From Embleya hyalina (GTDB taxonomy: Bacteria > Actinomycetota > Actinomycetes > Streptomycetales > Streptomycetaceae): a DNA stretch of 64,000 nucleotides. The DNA lies in NCBI RefSeq assembly GCF_003967355.1, contig NZ_BIFH01000014.1:62001-126000 (forward strand), written 5' to 3'. Below are positions 8,647 to 19,533 of the stretch, piece after piece. The first letter of the stretch is position 1. Every line of letters begins with the position of its first letter. Position numbers and translations under genes: made by a program. The notes beneath the pieces were generated by a model. The model was not told the origin of the DNA, did not search any database, and was given only the letters and a program-made list of their open reading frames with translations.

Positions 8647-9942
8647 TCACGAACCGCTCCCCAGCGGCAGCCGCGCCACCACCTCGTAACCGCCGCCGGG
8701 AATCGGCCCGTCGGCGAACTCGCCCCCCAGCATGGCCACCCGCTCCCGCATGCCGAGCAACCCGTGCCCGCCACCCGCCGCACCCGCCGCGGCCGCGACG
8801 TCGGTGGCCGGCGGCGCGGTATTGGCCACCCGCAGCGCCAACCCGGTGGCCTGATACCCCACCTCGACCCGGATCGCCGCGCCCGGCGCGTGCCGCAGCA
8901 CGTTGCTGAGTGCCTCCTGCACGATCCGGAACGCGGACAACTCGACCCCCGGCGACAACGGCCGGCGCTCGCCGGTGATCCGGGTGTCCACGTCGACTCC
9001 GGCGCCGCGTACGTTCTCGACCAACTCGGGCAATCGCTCCAGGGTCGGCTGCGGCGTGTGCCGCATGCCGATCGACAGGTCGTCCTCGGAGCGCAACACC
9101 CCCAGCACTCGACGCAGTTCGGCGAGCGCGTCCACCGCGTTCGTGCGGATGCCGGCCAGATTCTCCCGCAGCGCGTCGGACGGGTCGTCCACCAGGTGCG
9201 GCGCGACCTGCGCCTGGATCGAGATCACCGACATGTGATGAGCCACCACGTCGTGCAACTCGCGGGCGATCCGGGTGCGTTCCTCCAGCAGGGTGCGCCT
9301 GGACCGTTCCTCGGCGGTGAGTTCGGCCTGCGCCACCAACTGGTTCCGGGCCACCCCGCGCCCGCGCAGCGCCGCGCCGACCAGCACCGTGACGGAGAAG
9401 ATCAGCGTGGCCTGGTAAAGATCGGGGTTGTGCACCGGCGCCGCGGCGACCGTGCACACCGCGCCCACCAGGACGCTGATCGCCAGCGCCTCGGCGGCGA
9501 TCCTCGGGCGCATCCGCAGGGCCAGCACGAACAACGCGGCGGCGTGCAGCGCGAGGCCGGTCCCGGTCCACGGGTACATCTGCGGCGAGCGCGGCTTCGC
9601 GAGCACCGCGATCAGGACCATCGTCACGGTCACCGCCCACCAGGCCGGCAGCGGCCGCCGCACCGCGTACACCACGGCCAGCGGCGGGATCGACCCCAGC
9701 ACCACCCCGGGCCCCTGACCCAGGCCGTATTGCCAGATGGCCTGGTTGATGCCGAGGATGCCGGTCGGGAACACCGCGAAGGCGACCAGCAGCACCATCG
9801 CCGGTTGCCAGTCGCGCCACCCGGGAGGCAGCGGGTCGGGCCGCGCCCTCCACAGGTCGTCACGGAGGGTGCGGGGCACCGCGCGCAGTGCCGGTCCGAT
9901 TCGGCCCCCGCGCCCCTTTCGCACCTGATCGACTCCAGACAC
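8647..9942 (-). CDS. Membrane sensor histidine kinase (HisKA_3)
   Basis: The start is a GTG at 9942 with GGAGG 6 bases upstream, giving 431 residues. A basic N-terminal tail leads into five to six membrane helices (about residues 50-190) with very short loops, so the signal is probably membrane-borne. The dimerisation/phosphoacceptor helix is RIARELHDVVAHHMSVI. The ATPase domain has the N-box FRIVQEALSNVLRHA and the glycine loop GGGHGLLGMRERV. It pairs with the response regulator immediately downstream in one operon. The stimulus cannot be told from the sequence. Confidence 0.94.
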   Translation of the reverse strand: MSGVDQVRKGRGGRIGPALRAVPRTLRDDLWRARPDPLPPGWRDWQPAMVLLVAFAVFPTGILGINQAIWQYGLGQGPGVVLGSIPPLAVVYAVRRPLPAWWAVTVTMVLIAVLAKPRSPQMYPWTGTGLALHAAALFVLALRMRPRIAAEALAISVLVGAVCTVAAAPVHNPDLYQATLIFSVTVLVGAALRGRGVARNQLVAQAELTAEERSRRTLLEERTRIARELHDVVAHHMSVISIQAQVAPHLVDDPSDALRENLAGIRTNAVDALAELRRVLGVLRSEDDLSIGMRHTPQPTLERLPELVENVRGAGVDVDTRITGERRPLSPGVELSAFRIVQEALSNVLRHAPGAAIRVEVGYQATGLALRVANTAPPATDVAAAAGAAGGGHGLLGMRERVAMLGGEFADGPIPGGGYEVVARLPLGSGS

Positions 9943-10100
9943 ACCGTACCTCCGCCGTCCGGGCGAGCCGATGTGCGACCGCGCCCCGGCGTCGAAACTA
10001 CGCACCACCCGTGCCCGCCGGCGTCCCGCCGTGGAGCCGTCCCGTCGAGTGGCTCCGAGGTACTACGGGTATGACGGCCGGGACCCGGCCGTCATACCCC

Positions 10101-12808: not shown

Positions 12809-13663
12809 ATGATGGTCGAGTTGGCGGTGGGCGACGCGTATGGCGCCGGGTTCGAGTACGCGGAGCGTTCGTTCGTCACGCGAGGCAACACACTCGCCGG
12901 TTATGTGCAGCATCCCCGTCATCGTGACGTGCTGCCGGGTCGATATACGGACGACACGCAGATGAGTATCGCGGTCGCCGAGTGGTTGCTCGGCGACGAT
13001 CGCGGAATCCCGACCCTGGCGGAGCTGTTCGTGCGGGCGTACAAGCGGGATCCGCGCGCCGGATACGCGCGGGGGTTCCGGGGCGTACTCGAGGAAGTCG
13101 CCGACGGCACAGGGCTCCTGGAGGTGCTGCGGCCGGAGAGCGACAAGAGCGGCGCGGCGATGCGGGCGGGCGTGATCGGCCTGCTGCCGGACCGGGACGA
13201 GGTGCGGCGCACGGCGGCGCTCCAGGCCCGGATCACCCATCGCACGCCCGGCGGGATGACCTCGGCCGCGGCGGCGGCACTGGCGGTGCACTACTGCCGG
13301 TACGGGCTCGGCCCGATCGCCGGGCTGCCGGGTTGGTTGGCGGCGAACCTGCCCGCGTCCACCGGTCCGACGGTGTGGACCGAGCCGTGGCGCGGCAAGG
13401 TCGGCTCGGCCGGGATGGACAGCACCCGCGCGGCGGTCACCGCGCTCGCGGCGCACACCGGCACGGCCGCGCTCCTGCGCGCGTGCGTCGCGTACACCGG
13501 CGACGTGGACACGGTGGCCACCATCGCGCTCGCGGCGGCGAGTTGCTCGGCGGAGTACGCCCAGGACCTGCCGGGCGAACTGCTGACCGGCCTGGAGGAC
13601 GGCCCGTACGGCCGGGATTATCTCGCGGGCCTGGACGCGCGGTTGACGGCGCGGTTCGGCTGA
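12809..13663 (+). CDS. ADP-ribosylglycohydrolase family protein
   Basis: The protein has 284 residues. The ATG at 12809 (or the adjacent one at 12812) sits 10 bases after GAGAGAGG. Family motifs are present: VGDAYGAGFEY near the N-terminus, YTDDTQMSIAVAEWLL (the metal-binding DDT), and near the C-terminus AYTGDVDTVATIALAAAS (the second Asp pair). It should hydrolyse ADP-ribose from a protein, nucleic acid or small molecule using two Mg ions. It is a single cytoplasmic domain. It lies 1.4 kb from a NUDIX-containing operon, which makes an ADP-ribose-related neighbourhood possible but unproven. Confidence 0.92.
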   Translation: MMVELAVGDAYGAGFEYAERSFVTRGNTLAGYVQHPRHRDVLPGRYTDDTQMSIAVAEWLLGDDRGIPTLAELFVRAYKRDPRAGYARGFRGVLEEVADGTGLLEVLRPESDKSGAAMRAGVIGLLPDRDEVRRTAALQARITHRTPGGMTSAAAAALAVHYCRYGLGPIAGLPGWLAANLPASTGPTVWTEPWRGKVGSAGMDSTRAAVTALAAHTGTAALLRACVAYTGDVDTVATIALAAASCSAEYAQDLPGELLTGLEDGPYGRDYLAGLDARLTARFG

Positions 13664-14934: not shown

Positions 14935-14973
14935 GTTGTTCTCAGGTTAAGAAGATCTCAATCGGAGAACAAC
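14935..14973. promoter_or_regulatory. Inverted repeat before the NUDIX operon
   Basis: GTTGTTCTC (14935-14943) and GAGAACAAC (14965-14973) form perfect 9-bp arms 21 bases apart. They lie 83-121 bp before the NUDIX start in an otherwise non-coding stretch. The first operon gene encodes an NrtR-like NUDIX/winged-helix protein, so this is a natural candidate for its own operator. Confidence 0.5.
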
Positions 14974-15055: not shown

Positions 15056-15982
15056 ATGGCCGACACCGCCACCACCGAACGCGACTGGCTCGCGTCCTAC
15101 GACCCCAGGGCCTTCGAGCCGATCGCGGTGACCGTCGACATCGTCGCGCTGACGATTCGTCAACTCGGCCCGCAGGCCGGGGCGACGGTCGATCCGGAGG
15201 GCGACGCGGGGGGCGACGCGCAGGCGGGGGCGGAGCCGGGGGCCGGGCCGGAGGCCGGCGGGGGAGCCGGTGAGGGAGCCGAGAGCGCCGCCAAGGCGCT
15301 GCACGTGCTCCTGGTCCGGCGCGGCGAGATGCCGTTCGCGGGCCGCCTCGCGCTGCCCGGCGGCTTCGTCCGCCCGGTGATCGCCCCGGACGGCACCCGG
15401 CACGAGGAGGACCTCGCCGAGGCCGCCGAGCGCGAACTCGCCGAGGAGACCGGGCTCGCCGCCGGCACCCGACTCGACCGGCTCCACCTCGAACAGCTGG
15501 GCACCTACGGCACGCCCGGGCGCGACCCGAGGATGCGGATCGTCTCGGTCGCCCACCTCGCCTTCGCCCCGGACCTGCCCGACCCGACCGCCGGCGGCGA
15601 CGCCGCCCACGCGCAGTGGGTGCCCGTCGCCGACGTCGACCCGGCCGAACTGGCCTTCGATCACGCGCGCATCCTCGCCGACGGCCTGGAACGCGCCCGC
15701 GCCAAGCTCGAATACTCGCCGCTGGCCACCGCGTTCGCGGGCGAGGAGTTCACCGTCACCGAACTGCGCGAGGTCTACCAGGCGGTGTGGGGCCGGCCGA
15801 TGCACGCCGGCAACTTCCACCGCAAGGTGCTCTCGGTACCCGGCTTCGTCCGGGACACCGGCGCCACCACCGCCCGCGGCGGCGCGCGCGGCGGGCGCCG
15901 CGCCCGGCTGTACCGCGCGGGCCCCGCACGTCTGCTGCACCCGGCGCTGCTGCGCCCGTCCCCGGAGGAGGACTCCCGATGA
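15056..15982 (+). CDS. NUDIX domain / winged-helix protein (NrtR-like)
   Basis: The ATG at 15056 follows GGAGGG and gives 308 residues. The NUDIX core spans about 20-210 with LALPGGFV and the catalytic block EDLAEAAERELAEETGL, so the box looks active. Two insertions are notable: a Gly/Ala/Glu-rich stretch (~45-80) and extra residues inside the NUDIX box. The C-terminal ~90 residues (FTVTELREVYQAVWGRPM, NFHRKVLSVPGFV) match the winged helix of NrtR-type regulators, which sense ADP-ribose and control NAD genes. It may be enzyme, repressor or both. Its TGA overlaps the next ATG by 4 bases, implying translational coupling. Confidence 0.88.
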   Translation: MADTATTERDWLASYDPRAFEPIAVTVDIVALTIRQLGPQAGATVDPEGDAGGDAQAGAEPGAGPEAGGGAGEGAESAAKALHVLLVRRGEMPFAGRLALPGGFVRPVIAPDGTRHEEDLAEAAERELAEETGLAAGTRLDRLHLEQLGTYGTPGRDPRMRIVSVAHLAFAPDLPDPTAGGDAAHAQWVPVADVDPAELAFDHARILADGLERARAKLEYSPLATAFAGEEFTVTELREVYQAVWGRPMHAGNFHRKVLSVPGFVRDTGATTARGGARGGRRARLYRAGPARLLHPALLRPSPEEDSR

Positions 15983-17133
15983 CCAGGACGCCCGGCACCA
16001 CCTCGACCGGCCCCACCACCTTCGACGACGCGCTCGATCTGCTGACCGGCGCGCCGGACCCGCAGGGCGTCTTCGGGCCCTACGACGGCACACCCGAGGC
16101 ATGTCTGCGGGCGGGCAACCGCACCTATCGGCTGCTCGCGCGCCTGCTCCACCCGGACACCGCGCCGGCCGACCGCCGTGCCGAGGCCGCCGCCGCGTTC
16201 ACCCGGCTCGGCGAGTCGTGGAACCGCTATCAACAGGACATCACCGGGGTGACCGGCCGTCAGGTGGTGATCACCACCAAGCGCCGGGTCTACTCGGTCG
16301 GCGGCGAGCGGGCGAGCGGCGACATCGCCACGCTGTACAAGGTCAACTACCGGGCCGAGGACGACGGCGAGGCGCGGGCGCTGCTCAAGCTGCCGCGCTC
16401 GGTCACCGACAACGACCTGATGGAGCGCGAGGCCACCGCCCTGGAGCGGATCGCGCGCGAGGGCGACCCGGAATACGCGAACTACGTACCCCGGCTGATC
16501 GAGACGTTCCGGCATCGTGACGCCGCGTCCGGTACCGAGCGGCGCGCCAACGTGATCGAACGGGTGCGCGGCTTCCGGTCGTTGGCCGAGGTGCGCGAGG
16601 CGTACCCGGACGGTCTGGACGCGCGCGACGTGGCCTGGATGTGGCGCCGGCTGCTGGTCGCGATCGGGTACGCGCACCGCGCGGGTGTGGTCCACGGCGC
16701 GATCACCCCCGACCACGTGCTGATCCACCCGCGCGAGCACGGCCTGGTCCTGGTCGACTGGTGCTACTCGGTGCTGCTCGACGGTTCGGCCGACCCGGCC
16801 CGACCGGAGGCGATCCTGCGGGCGAAGGCGGTCGAGCACGTGCCCGCGATGATCGACCGGCACGCCGACCTGTACCCGCCGGAGATCCCGGCCAAGCAGC
16901 TGCCGGAGACGGCGGCCGACGTCTACATGGCGACCCGCTGCGTCACCGGCCTGCTCGCGCCGGACGCGCCCAAGCCGCTGTCGCGCTTCGCCCGGGGCTG
17001 CTCCCTGCCCGCCCCGGCACGCCGTCCGCACGACGCGTGGAAGCTGCTCGGCGAGCTGGACGAACTGCTCGGCAAGCTCTACGGCCCGCGCCGCTTCCGG
17101 CCGTTCGCGATGCCCACGCGTCGCGAGTCGTAG
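15979..17133 (+). CDS. J-domain-like / pseudokinase fusion protein
   Basis: The protein has 384 residues and starts inside the NUDIX stop (ATGA). Residues ~15-85 form a short J-domain-like helical unit with an intact HPD (58-60, RLLHPDTAP) and FTRLGESWNRYQQ after it. Residues ~95-340 follow a protein-kinase plan: candidate Lys137 (ALLKLP), Glu149/151, a catalytic-loop position reading VVHGAITPDHVLI, and a metal-loop LVLVDWCYS with Asp260. HRD is replaced by HGA, so the catalytic Asp is missing; this looks like a pseudokinase or an altered transferase. There is no membrane segment. A role in presenting or recruiting a chaperone is inference only. Confidence 0.8.
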   Translation: MTRTPGTTSTGPTTFDDALDLLTGAPDPQGVFGPYDGTPEACLRAGNRTYRLLARLLHPDTAPADRRAEAAAAFTRLGESWNRYQQDITGVTGRQVVITTKRRVYSVGGERASGDIATLYKVNYRAEDDGEARALLKLPRSVTDNDLMEREATALERIAREGDPEYANYVPRLIETFRHRDAASGTERRANVIERVRGFRSLAEVREAYPDGLDARDVAWMWRRLLVAIGYAHRAGVVHGAITPDHVLIHPREHGLVLVDWCYSVLLDGSADPARPEAILRAKAVEHVPAMIDRHADLYPPEIPAKQLPETAADVYMATRCVTGLLAPDAPKPLSRFARGCSLPAPARRPHDAWKLLGELDELLGKLYGPRRFRPFAMPTRRES

Positions 17134-17141
17134 GCCTGATC

Positions 17142-17179
17142 CGACGGGAGCCGGCGGCGGTCTCCGCCGGCTCCCGTCG
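17142..17179. terminator. Strong hairpin between pseudokinase and vWA genes
   Basis: Arms 17142-17157 and 17164-17179 pair perfectly over 16 bp around a 6-base loop, starting 8 bp after the pseudokinase stop. A second GC hairpin follows at about 17187-17209. No U-run is visible. It could end the first transcript or lower expression of the vWA and synthetase genes relative to the upstream pair. Confidence 0.6.
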
Positions 17180-17254
17180 CACCTTCGGCCGGCCCGCTGG
17201 GCCGGCCGAACATCCACGCACGGATTCCAGCGTCCCGATCGGGGAGTGAGCACC

Positions 17255-18250
17255 ATGGGTAGTGGCAATTGGTCCACCAACGTCTACGACGCGGCCCAGA
17301 GTTACAACCGGGCCAGCGGCCGCAGCGCGTTCCACTACGACCACGTCACCAAGAACAGCACGCCGCACAGCGCCTGGAAGGCGCACGTCGACCTGGATCC
17401 GGCGCTCGCGGGCATCCGGGAGAGCCGGGACAGCGACGAACACCCCTTGTCCCTGGCCGTCTCGGTGCTGTTCGACGTGACGGGCTCGATGCTTCGGGTC
17501 CCGCAGACCCTGCAGACCAAGCTGCCCGAGTTGTTCGGACTGCTGCTGCGCAAGGGCTATGTGCAGGACCCGCAGATAATGTTCGGCGCGATCGGCGACG
17601 CGACCAGCGACCGAGTCCCGTTGCAGGTCGGCCAGTTCGAGTCGGACAACCGGATGGACGACCAGCTCGGCAACATTCTGCTCGAAGGGGGCGGCGGCGG
17701 GCAGAAGCGCGAATCCTACGAGCTGGCCCTGTACTTCATGGCCCGGCACACCTCGATCGACTGTCACGAGAAGCGCGGGAAGCGCGGCTACCTGTTCGTG
17801 ATCGGCGACGAGATGCCCTACCGCAAGGTGCGCCGGTCCGAGGTGCTGGAGTTCATCGGCGACGACATCGGCGAGGACATCCCGATCGAGCGGATCCTGG
17901 CCGAACTGCGGCGCAAGTTCGAGGTGTACTACATCCTCCCGGCCGGGTCGTCCTACGTCGGCGACAAGGAGGTCCTGGGCGAGTGGAAGGGCCTGCTCGG
18001 GCAGCACGTGATCGAACTCGACGACCCCGACGGGGTCTGCGAGACGATCGCGCTGACCATCGGCCTCGCGGAGGACGCGATCGACCTGGACGAGGGCCTG
18101 GAGCACCTGCGCGACGTGGGTGCCGACGCGCAGGTGGCCAACGTGTCCAAGGCGCTGGCCTCGTACGCCCGTTCCGGCGGCGGGGTGGCCGTCTCGGGCT
18201 CGCTGCCGGGCCTGGGCGAGGGTGACGGCGCGGGCACCACGCGCCTGTGA
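17255..18250 (+). CDS. von Willebrand factor A-like protein
   Basis: The ATG at 17255 is preferred over an in-frame GTG at 17246 because GGGGAG is then 8 bases away; this gives 331 residues. The vWA core begins at about residue 66, with VLFDVTGSML (74-78) as a DxTxS-type metal-ion adhesion motif and GAIGDATSDRVPLQ as the next loop. A Gly-rich linker LLEGGGGGQKRES follows, then GYLFVIGDEMPY. No signal peptide is present, so it acts in the cytoplasm. vWA proteins commonly act as adaptors with ATPases or kinases. Its stop overlaps the next start (GTGA), so it is coupled to the synthetase-like gene. Confidence 0.85.
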   Translation: MGSGNWSTNVYDAAQSYNRASGRSAFHYDHVTKNSTPHSAWKAHVDLDPALAGIRESRDSDEHPLSLAVSVLFDVTGSMLRVPQTLQTKLPELFGLLLRKGYVQDPQIMFGAIGDATSDRVPLQVGQFESDNRMDDQLGNILLEGGGGGQKRESYELALYFMARHTSIDCHEKRGKRGYLFVIGDEMPYRKVRRSEVLEFIGDDIGEDIPIERILAELRRKFEVYYILPAGSSYVGDKEVLGEWKGLLGQHVIELDDPDGVCETIALTIGLAEDAIDLDEGLEHLRDVGADAQVANVSKALASYARSGGGVAVSGSLPGLGEGDGAGTTRL

Positions 18251-19533
18251 CACCTCGTCATGTCGCGGTCGTCGACCTGGGGTTCGGCGACGCGGGCAAG
18301 GGCACCGCGGTGGACCGGCTGTGCGCGCGGGCGCGCGCGCAGGGGCGGCCGGTCCACGCGGTGATCCGGTTCAACGGGGGTGCGCAGGCCGCGCACAACG
18401 TGGTCACCGACGATGGGCGGCACCACACGTTCGCCCAGTTCGGCTCGGGCACGTTCACCCCGGGCACGCGCACCCACCTGTCCCGGTTCGTGCTGGTGGA
18501 CCCGCTCGCGCTGGCCGCCGAGGCCGAACACCTGCGCGCGCTCGGGGTGGCGGATCCGCTCGGGCTGCTCACGGTGGACCGGGACGCGCTGCTGACCACG
18601 CCGTACCACGCGGCGGCCAATCGCGCCCGGGAGTCGGCGCGCGGGGCGGGACGGCACGGGTCGTGCGGGATGGGGGTCGGCGAGACGGCGGCCTTCGCGC
18701 TCGCCCATCCGGAGCTGGCGCCGCGGGTGGGGGACTGCGCCGCGCCGCGACGGTTGCGCCGGCGGTTGGGCGCGGTGCGGGAGGTGCTGAGCGCCGAATT
18801 CGGGACACCGCTGGGACCCGACGTCGAGGCGTGCGTGGCGGCGTTCACCGGCTTCGGGCGGGCGGTGCGCGCGGTGGACGGGGGGTATACCGGCGAGCTG
18901 CTGCGGGCCGGGCCGGTGGTGTTCGAGGGGGCGCAGGGCGTACTGCTGGACGAGTGGCACGGGTTCCACCCGTACACGACGTGGTCGACCACGACGTTCG
19001 CGGGCGCGGAGGCGTTGGCCGCCGAGGCGGGGGAGGGGGTGTACCGGCTCGGCGTGCTGCGCACCTACACCACCCGGCACGGGCCCGGGCCGCTGCCGAG
19101 CGAGGACGCGGGGCTGACGGCCGCGCTGCCGGATCCGCACAACGGGACCGGGCGGTGGCAGGGGACGTTCCGGGTGGGCCACTTCGACGCGGTCGCGCAT
19201 CGGTACGCGGTCGCGGTGTGCGGGGGTGTGGACGGGCTCGCGCTCACCCACGCGGACGTGCCCGGGCGGGTGCCGGGCCTGGGTGTGGCGCGCGCGTACG
19301 CGGGGCCCGAACCGTGGGCGAGCCCGGTTCCGGACCTGGCCCACGCGGAGCGGCTGACCGCTTTGATGGCGGCCGCGCGGCCGGTGGTGGAGCCGGCGCC
19401 GGCGGCCGGCGATTGGCCGGATTTCGCCGCCGCCGAGCTGGGTGCCCCGGTGACCTTGCTCTCGTTCGGTCCGCGCACCGGTGACAAGCGCGAGCGGGCG
19501 GTACTAGGCTCGTATTACTCTCCGGTAACATAG
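18247..19533 (+). CDS. Divergent adenylosuccinate-synthetase-like enzyme
   Basis: The protein has 428 residues from a GTG at 18247. It follows the PurA plan but key loops are altered. The P-loop GDEGKGK reads GDAGKGT (Asp15 kept), GGNNAGHTVV reads GGAQAAHNVV (His50 kept), GTTGRGIGP reads GSCGMGVGE, and the guanine-specificity TKLD reads THAD. FEGAQGVLLDEWHG and YTTWSTTT keep the family shape. The catalytic Asp and His remain, so it may be active, but substrate-binding loops differ from housekeeping PurA. It is probably a paralogue with another nucleotide or amino acid substrate. It is translationally coupled to the vWA gene. Confidence 0.82.
   Translation: MTPRHVAVVDLGFGDAGKGTAVDRLCARARAQGRPVHAVIRFNGGAQAAHNVVTDDGRHHTFAQFGSGTFTPGTRTHLSRFVLVDPLALAAEAEHLRALGVADPLGLLTVDRDALLTTPYHAAANRARESARGAGRHGSCGMGVGETAAFALAHPELAPRVGDCAAPRRLRRRLGAVREVLSAEFGTPLGPDVEACVAAFTGFGRAVRAVDGGYTGELLRAGPVVFEGAQGVLLDEWHGFHPYTTWSTTTFAGAEALAAEAGEGVYRLGVLRTYTTRHGPGPLPSEDAGLTAALPDPHNGTGRWQGTFRVGHFDAVAHRYAVAVCGGVDGLALTHADVPGRVPGLGVARAYAGPEPWASPVPDLAHAERLTALMAAARPVVEPAPAAGDWPDFAAAELGAPVTLLSFGPRTGDKRERAVLGSYYSPVT

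Follow-up and report, generated by a model that had tools for sequence, protein, structure and literature searches.

A conserved actinobacterial operon couples a NUDIX regulator to a vWA protein and an adenylosuccinate synthetase-like enzyme with predicted remodelled pockets, and shares its core with phages

A 64,000-nucleotide stretch of the 12.05 Mb genome of Embleya hyalina (contig 14, 62001-126000; hereafter the window) carries four genes on its plus strand, spanning positions 15056-19533 and encoding a NUDIX protein, a pseudokinase with a J-like domain (J-pseudokinase), a vWA protein and an enzyme resembling adenylosuccinate synthetase (AdSS). We found this cassette to be a widely conserved unit. 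Its minimal core of the vWA protein and the AdSS-like enzyme, its versions in phages and a conserved, predicted operator in front of the NUDIX gene had not been recognised in an earlier interpretation of the same DNA made from its letters alone (the sequence-only reading). The layout described there was recovered in full when the sequence was re-read: the NUDIX and J-pseudokinase genes overlap by ATGA and the vWA and AdSS-like genes by GTGA, the two pairs are separated by a gap of 121 bp containing a hairpin, and a 9-bp inverted repeat (GTTGTTCTC...GAGAACAAC, at 14935-14973) precedes the cassette and lies within the longer operator.

Loci were collected with the vWA protein as bait, from one genome per species, and at least 551 actinobacterial stretches were confirmed, the best 80 of which are referred to below as the named loci. 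All four genes were present in the same order and on the same strand in 62 of these 80; the others comprised eight NUDIX-vWA-AdSS loci, three kinase-vWA-AdSS loci, five with only vWA and AdSS, and two without AdSS. The vWA gene adjoined the AdSS-like gene in 78/80, the other two being contig ends, and the aligned parts of the two proteins lay -15 to 519 bp apart in the 78 loci with both. It is because these 78 loci keep the pair, and five hold the pair alone, that we consider it to be the minimal core. An overlap of exactly 4 nt was obtained, with start codons picked by script, for 42 of 64 NUDIX/kinase pairs and 31 of 78 vWA/AdSS pairs, and these counts, together with the shared order and strand, place the arrangement far beyond chance. 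The vWA protein was found in 20 of 41 genomes (E. hyalina and 40 relatives; 7/22 genera) and in 29 of 296 genomes of the class (16/115 genera, counting the E. hyalina genome and one weak match). The linkage on which the sequence-only reading depended is thus conserved well beyond close relatives.

The tree of 73 AdSS proteins required only six label changes to accommodate the bacterial orders (least possible 5, shuffled mean 35.3), with four needed by Streptosporangiales alone and two by Kitasatosporales. The tree therefore tracks the bacterial orders, suggesting mostly vertical descent with repeated loss. The AdSS proteins of Embleya and Yinghuangia (loci L056, L057, L058 and L060) clustered with eight Frankiales rows and apart from the remaining Streptomycetaceae, which hints that the gene was transferred or duplicated long ago. 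The vWA gene was also present in 21 plasmid records, including those of Rhodococcus, Tsukamurella, Agrobacterium and Variovorax. Four plasmid loci were read: those from Rhodococcus, Tsukamurella and Allorhizobium had AdSS and NUDIX genes near vWA, and the Variovorax locus contained the kinase, vWA and AdSS. On the Allorhizobium plasmid pAtS4e (L191:8831-16732), the vWA and AdSS genes are followed by genes for an AAA ATPase, DUF5682 and DUF4132.

The AdSS-like protein matched the adenylosuccinate synthetase family (PF00709, 5.8e-57), and 39 members of its own family were aligned and numbered according to Escherichia coli PurA. PurA phosphorylates the O6 of a 6-oxopurine in a GTP-dependent step that is followed by attack of an amine; its Asn38, Thr129 and Arg143 contact the 5'-phosphate of inosine monophosphate (IMP), and Val273, Thr301, Arg303 and Arg305 lie on the aspartate side. 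Asp13, Lys16, His41, Gln224 and Thr239 were kept in all 39 sequences and Asp333 in 37. In contrast, the residues of the phosphate side were almost entirely replaced, with Gln for Asn38 in 38/39 (Asn in one), Cys for Thr129 in 34/39 (Thr in two) and Arg143 retained in two. On the aspartate side, Val273 was His in 39/39, Thr301 was Trp, Tyr or Phe in 37 and retained in none, Gly302 was Gln in 38, Arg303 was Gly in 32 and retained in one, and Arg305 was retained in none; Lys331 was altered in every member. With residue roles taken from the chemistry of PurA, this pattern suggests that the phosphoryl-transfer machinery has been kept and that the pockets for the IMP phosphate and for aspartate have been rebuilt. 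The PurA-like enzyme of changed specificity in the sequence-only reading is supported as far as the pocket residues go. A canonical PurA is also encoded by the E. hyalina genome, as a distinct protein (560.6 bits, cut-off 395.55).

Relatives of the vWA protein were detected in 46 IMG/VR contigs, accepted as viral on that database's classification. A collection of 50,697 phage records gave matches in 208 (189 Mycobacterium, 10 Rhizobium, 6 Vibrio and 3 others). The AdSS query retrieved 224 phage records (189, 10 and 6 for the same three host genera, and 19 others), and the other-host matches listed (Acinetobacter, one unnamed phage, Staphylococcus and Listeria) were weak. The two proteins therefore gave equal counts for Mycobacterium, Rhizobium and Vibrio phages, in a comparison of totals rather than of accession lists. 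A dereplicated set of 45 viral records chosen by vWA (near-copies L164, L170, L174 and L179 excluded) contained, within the stretch examined, AdSS in 42, the pseudokinase in 31 and all three genes in 28. Seventeen of these 28 had the order kinase-vWA-AdSS with gaps below 400 bp, the other 11 having genes in between or the kinase after the pair; vWA and AdSS lay within 400 bp of each other in 29/42. Phage Ghost carries, in succession, a polynucleotide kinase gene, a small gene, the genes for a "serine/threonine kinase" and vWA, another small gene and one for a "PurA-like adenylosuccinate synthetase". In nearly all the phage annotation rows seen, the vWA protein was a "hypothetical protein" and the AdSS-like protein bore a purine-synthesis label. 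According to a published account, the proteins of Vi01-like phages include both an adenylosuccinate synthase and a vWA protein (PMC10892097). No Salmonella phage was present among the 208 vWA-matching records, and two Salmonella records were among the AdSS matches.

Two of the phages with vWA have additional features. The vWA protein of Mycobacterium phage Wally (gp259, L355:2465-4282) has a 254-residue in-frame insert directly before its IFIGDE strand; the insert starts with Cys and ends with Asn followed by Cys, the pattern of inteins. The matching gene in two sister phages is annotated "HNH endonuclease". In Rhizobium phage RHph_TM21B (L187:2401-6422), genes for a metallophosphatase, PRTase_3 and a NUDIX protein lie upstream of the vWA-AdSS pair.

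The first protein of the cassette contained both a NUDIX domain (PF00293, 1.7e-17) and an NrtR winged helix (PF21906, 3.2e-11), and is therefore of the NrtR type, as the sequence-only reading had it. It matched the structure 3gz5 (1.4e-23), has NrtR and AraR among its structurally characterised relatives, and scored 98.9 against a cut-off of 400 on the NtrR equivalog model. Comparison of the upstream DNA identified a 39-bp double-dyad operator in front of the NUDIX gene, with the consensus GTTNTTCTC-N5-GAGAA-N3-CTC-N5-GAGAACNAC, derived by visual inspection of some of the scored loci themselves; scoring used 24 fixed positions. Each of the 71 named loci in which the NUDIX start could be used scored 17-24 (mean 22.1), and 1560 dinucleotide shuffles scored 16 or less. 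In 70/71, the highest-scoring site anywhere in the locus was the one at the NUDIX start; the exception (L119) has a higher-scoring second copy at 9935-9973, between the pseudokinase and vWA genes and 66 bp before the latter. The operator was not found in six NUDIX-less loci of the Catenulispora type, which scored 14-15; scores in ten loci from phages or plasmids were 14-16. In the 41 genomes, a 35-bp version of the pattern (three mismatches at most) was present in ten, nine with vWA and one other (G005). The E. hyalina genome, read on both strands, had it at one place only, and one relative (G004) had a second, weaker site elsewhere. Eleven vWA genomes gave no match; ten belong to one genus, with no NUDIX gene found in their stretches, and the last (G020) is considered below. 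In G005 (contig C101, L211:809-1645), a stretch of 6.6 kb was read that contains the NUDIX gene and the operator but none of the remaining three genes, and the two are probably a remnant of the operon. The tie between operator and NUDIX gene, the single place in the E. hyalina genome and the solitary pair in G005 all argue for a dedicated autoregulator. Autoregulation of the operon by the NUDIX protein through this predicted operator is thus well supported, and the sense of control, by analogy with the NrtR family, would be repression. The features of the window are listed in Table 1.

Table 1. Predicted features of the cassette and its flanks, in window positions.
Feature	Position	Strand	Basis
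Operator, GTTGTTCTC-N5-AAGAA-GAT-CTC-N5-GAGAACAAC, two dyads nested in a larger dyad	14935..14973	+	71/71 loci, shuffles
NUDIX protein with NrtR-type winged helix, predicted local repressor	15056..15982	+	Pfam PF00293, PF21906; PDB 3gz5
J-like N-terminal domain with HPD motif, and pseudokinase	15979..17133	+	Residue counts, kinase fold
Strong hairpin between the gene pairs	17142..17179	+	Folding z-score of region
Second hairpin, after the first	about 17184-17210		
vWA protein with MIDAS-like motifs DxTGSM, GDA, GDE; core component	17255..18250	+	Alignments, I-domain/vWA fold
AdSS-like enzyme, substrate pockets predicted to be remodelled; core component	18247..19533	+	PF00709, pocket residues

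The 131-nt gap region that includes the strong hairpin had a folding energy of -77.2 kcal/mol (z -4.08). The vWA protein had no Pfam match up to an E-value of 1. Its AlphaFold model (pLDDT 87.1) was matched by Foldseek to pilus-adhesin, integrin I-domain and vWA structures, including that of the NorD vWA, and the fold, a DxTxS motif and further Thr and Asp motifs predict a metal ion-dependent adhesion site (MIDAS). The J-pseudokinase gave kinase-like Pfam matches of 5.4e-5 to 0.023, and the Foldseek matches of its model (pLDDT 92.6) were kinases. The catalytic Asp of the HRD motif was present in none of 120 homologues (Ala in 114, Ser in two, Gly in two, Asn in one and a gap in one), together with conservation of the beta3 Lys in 120, the alphaC Glu in 119 and the DFG Asp in 105. 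The full HPD motif was found in 103/120, in keeping with the dead kinase bearing an HPD motif that the sequence-only reading had described. The J assignment derives from this motif and the helical N-terminus; the Pfam DnaJ match (0.0097, 16.4 bits) was below the cut-off of 27.8 bits.

We tentatively propose that the four genes constitute a ligand-inducible purine-conjugation module acting on a 6-oxopurine other than IMP. The NUDIX protein would bind the double-dyad operator before its own operon and keep the operon off until a ligand of its NUDIX domain arrives. The AdSS-like enzyme, as its kept residues suggest, would carry out a GTP-dependent O6 phosphorylation of a 6-oxopurine followed by amine attack; it would aminate or conjugate some other purine-containing compound, and the amine, too, probably differs from that of PurA, because the residues by which PurA recognises the 5'-phosphate and aspartate are changed. 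The vWA protein would be an obligate partner whose MIDAS metal may bind an acidic group on either the substrate or a partner protein, and the J-pseudokinase might be a dispensable nucleotide-binding scaffold recruiting DnaK. Large phages would use the same core for the same reaction during infection. In its widest form, the proposal is of a third class of AdSS-like enzyme, obligately paired with vWA, making a new amino-conjugated purine, perhaps a derivative of NAD or ADP-ribose modified at N6, that serves as metabolite or signal, under a private NUDIX switch in bacteria and with the same core in phages of at least three host genera; in this form we hold it to be possible but doubtful.

The substrate might be drawn from the NAD/ADP-ribose pool, since the regulator is of a kind that senses ADP-ribose and a few viral copies of the genes lie among those for NAMPT, NMNAT-like and NADAR proteins. 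One viral locus (L151) has the order NrtR relative, vWA, NMNAT-like/NUDIX, NAMPT, AdSS and kinase, with NADAR about 2 kb further on, the NMNAT-like part being below the cut-off of its NCBIfam model (5.9e-9). In a second (L149), an NrtR relative and NAMPT immediately precede vWA. NADAR abuts the kinase, directly before it, in L137, lies about 0.8 kb before the kinase in L136, and is one gene before vWA in L186. NADAR was also detected in 16 of the 45 viral records carrying genes of the vWA-AdSS-kinase trio, versus 0/31 control records for ribonucleotide reductase (RNR). This enrichment was set aside because NADAR is carried by 14 of 35 large NAMPT phages too, and that of NAMPT was likewise rejected as statistical evidence, leaving only the close adjacency of genes. 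NAMPT was present in 8/45 trio records versus 4/31 controls. A separate, probe-based count was biased in that some probes had been drawn from trio loci; for NAMPT, independent probes gave 4/45 versus 0/58.

Several observations weigh against the proposal or its NAD branch. NAMPT was not clearly more frequent in the trio records than in the RNR controls (8/45 versus 4/31), vWA was present in only 1/35 NAMPT phages, and the trio was absent from the flanks examined of all 78 other NAMPT loci. Near the 80 actinobacterial loci, the phage-derived probes detected NADAR once and NAMPT and NMNAT never, and the NUDIX protein could sense another ligand. We consider a substrate from the NAD/ADP-ribose pool to be plausible but somewhat unlikely. 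As for the regulator, G020 carries the cassette with its NUDIX gene, yet has no operator within three mismatches. As for the enzyme, 36 of the 39 AdSS-like sequences have Arg at position 306 and the alignment of the aspartate loop (residues 296-306) is gapped, so part of the carboxylate site may survive. The earlier interpretation was partly supported, namely for the kinase, the enzyme pockets, the NrtR type and the linkage; the ADP-ribose ligand and the adaptor role of the vWA protein are its conjectural part.

The same genes might instead form an anti-phage (conflict) system, in which infection or NADase activity would yield an NAD-derived ligand, the repressor would come off, and the trio would stop the phage by modifying some nucleotide or protein, phage copies serving for counter-defence or the exclusion of rivals. 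The patchy distribution in 29 of 296 genomes and the carriage of the core by phages would suit such a role, and Nudix-type regulators and vWA proteins do occur in the conflict systems centred on ADP-ribosylglycohydrolase (ARG) (PMC9503650, section 3.8). PADLOC, however, returned no match for the NUDIX, vWA and AdSS proteins, three of the four, on which ground known defence systems were rejected, and its matches for the kinase (MkoA, 7.2e-13; more weakly PD-T4-6 and PglW) were to kinase domains only. Moreover, the AdSS tree follows the bacterial orders, and no same-sense neighbour cluster besides the cassette and its antisense frames occurred in more than 25/80 loci, as judged from clusters without annotation and a crude gene calling that missed vWA itself in 24/80. 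We regard defence as a rather improbable role.

An unlikely alternative is ordinary purine salvage or pool maintenance, with a specialised PurA acting on IMP, deoxy-IMP or inosine triphosphate arising from stress or deamination and the vWA protein and J-pseudokinase serving as chaperones. The catalytic residues are kept, Arg306 could still hold a carboxylate, and phages often bear genes of nucleotide metabolism. Salvage is nevertheless difficult to reconcile with the altered 5'-phosphate contacts in nearly all 39 members and with the canonical PurA already present in the host; it would also be unusual for a salvage enzyme to come with its own regulator and an ever-present vWA partner. Least probable of all is the modification of a protein or nucleic acid, in which the vWA protein and J-pseudokinase would deliver a macromolecule and the AdSS-like enzyme would join its amine to a purine or modify a purine in RNA or DNA: both the nucleotide and amino-acid pockets have changed residues, domains of the vWA, J-like and pseudokinase kinds bind proteins, and phage Ghost has a polynucleotide kinase gene two positions ahead of its kinase gene, but the J-pseudokinase was not detected in the minimal core of Catenulispora and several viral records.

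The unit is widespread, with at least 551 genome stretches and the core in 189 Mycobacterium phage records. The residue changes predict that the purine-synthesis labels of the phage genes are wrong. Should the enzyme make a new purine conjugate, a textbook enzyme family would gain a further class of product, and a widely sequenced but unexplained phage gene set would be given a function. The 39-bp operator tied to the NUDIX gene is new here, and could serve directly as a reporter in a search for the inducing ligand.

The gene set fits none of the known kinds tested (PurA, PurZ, ARG-centred and PADLOC systems). That the sequence-only reading knew of no described system with this set is consistent with the openly licensed PubMed Central literature, in which no published account of the four genes was found, although such absence is no proof; a term search of PMC7159879 and PMC7824862 gave no occurrence of "adenylosuccinate". 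The ARG-centred systems likewise combine a Nudix transcription factor and vWA proteins, described as chaperones, in one neighbourhood, and section 3.8 of their description mentions neither AdSS nor a kinase (PMC9503650). The window does contain an ADP-ribosylglycohydrolase gene upstream of the cassette (12812-13663; PF03747, 1.2e-23), which we take for a neighbour rather than a part, because only one of the 80 named loci, an Embleya locus (L056), has such a gene nearby; membership of these systems was rejected on this basis.

PurA shares with the AdSS-like enzyme its Pfam family, the catalytic Asp13 and His41, and also Lys16, Gln224, Thr239 and, mostly, Asp333, and differs in Asn38, Thr129, Arg143, Val273, Thr301, Arg303 and Arg305, nearly all of which are replaced in the AdSS-like family. 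The PurZ and PurZ0 proteins of Z-genome phages are likewise phage-borne AdSS paralogues, but with the reverse pattern: they have Ser in place of Asp13 and keep Asn38, Thr129, Arg143 and Val273 (phiVC8, Ghobes), whereas the AdSS-like enzymes keep Asp13, have altered pockets and are accompanied by vWA. It was the kept Asp13 and the residues of the pockets that led us to reject membership of the PurZ/Z-genome group. In a recent study, all of 147 phage PurZ sequences (100%) are reported to have Ser at position 13 (PMC12884076, 2026). The 39 AdSS-like members grouped in a single branch that excluded phiVC8 PurZ and Ghobes PurZ0, with a support of 0.72 in a tree including only two PurA and two PurZ sequences. 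The PHROGs name for the family (phrog_1211), "2-aminooxy adenylosuccinate synthetase", which also appears in some phage annotations, is a misfit, because Asp13 is kept and PurZ has Ser.

Some phages carry NAD+ reconstitution (NAMPT/NMNAT) operons, and in L151 the trio genes are likewise interspersed with those for NAMPT, an NrtR relative and an NMNAT-like/NUDIX protein; NAMPT phages differ in that vWA is mostly absent from them. Finally, the NrtR and AraR regulators share with the NUDIX protein of the operon the combination of NUDIX domain and winged helix and a conserved operator at their own promoter, and the latter is set apart by having a single operator place in the searched genome.

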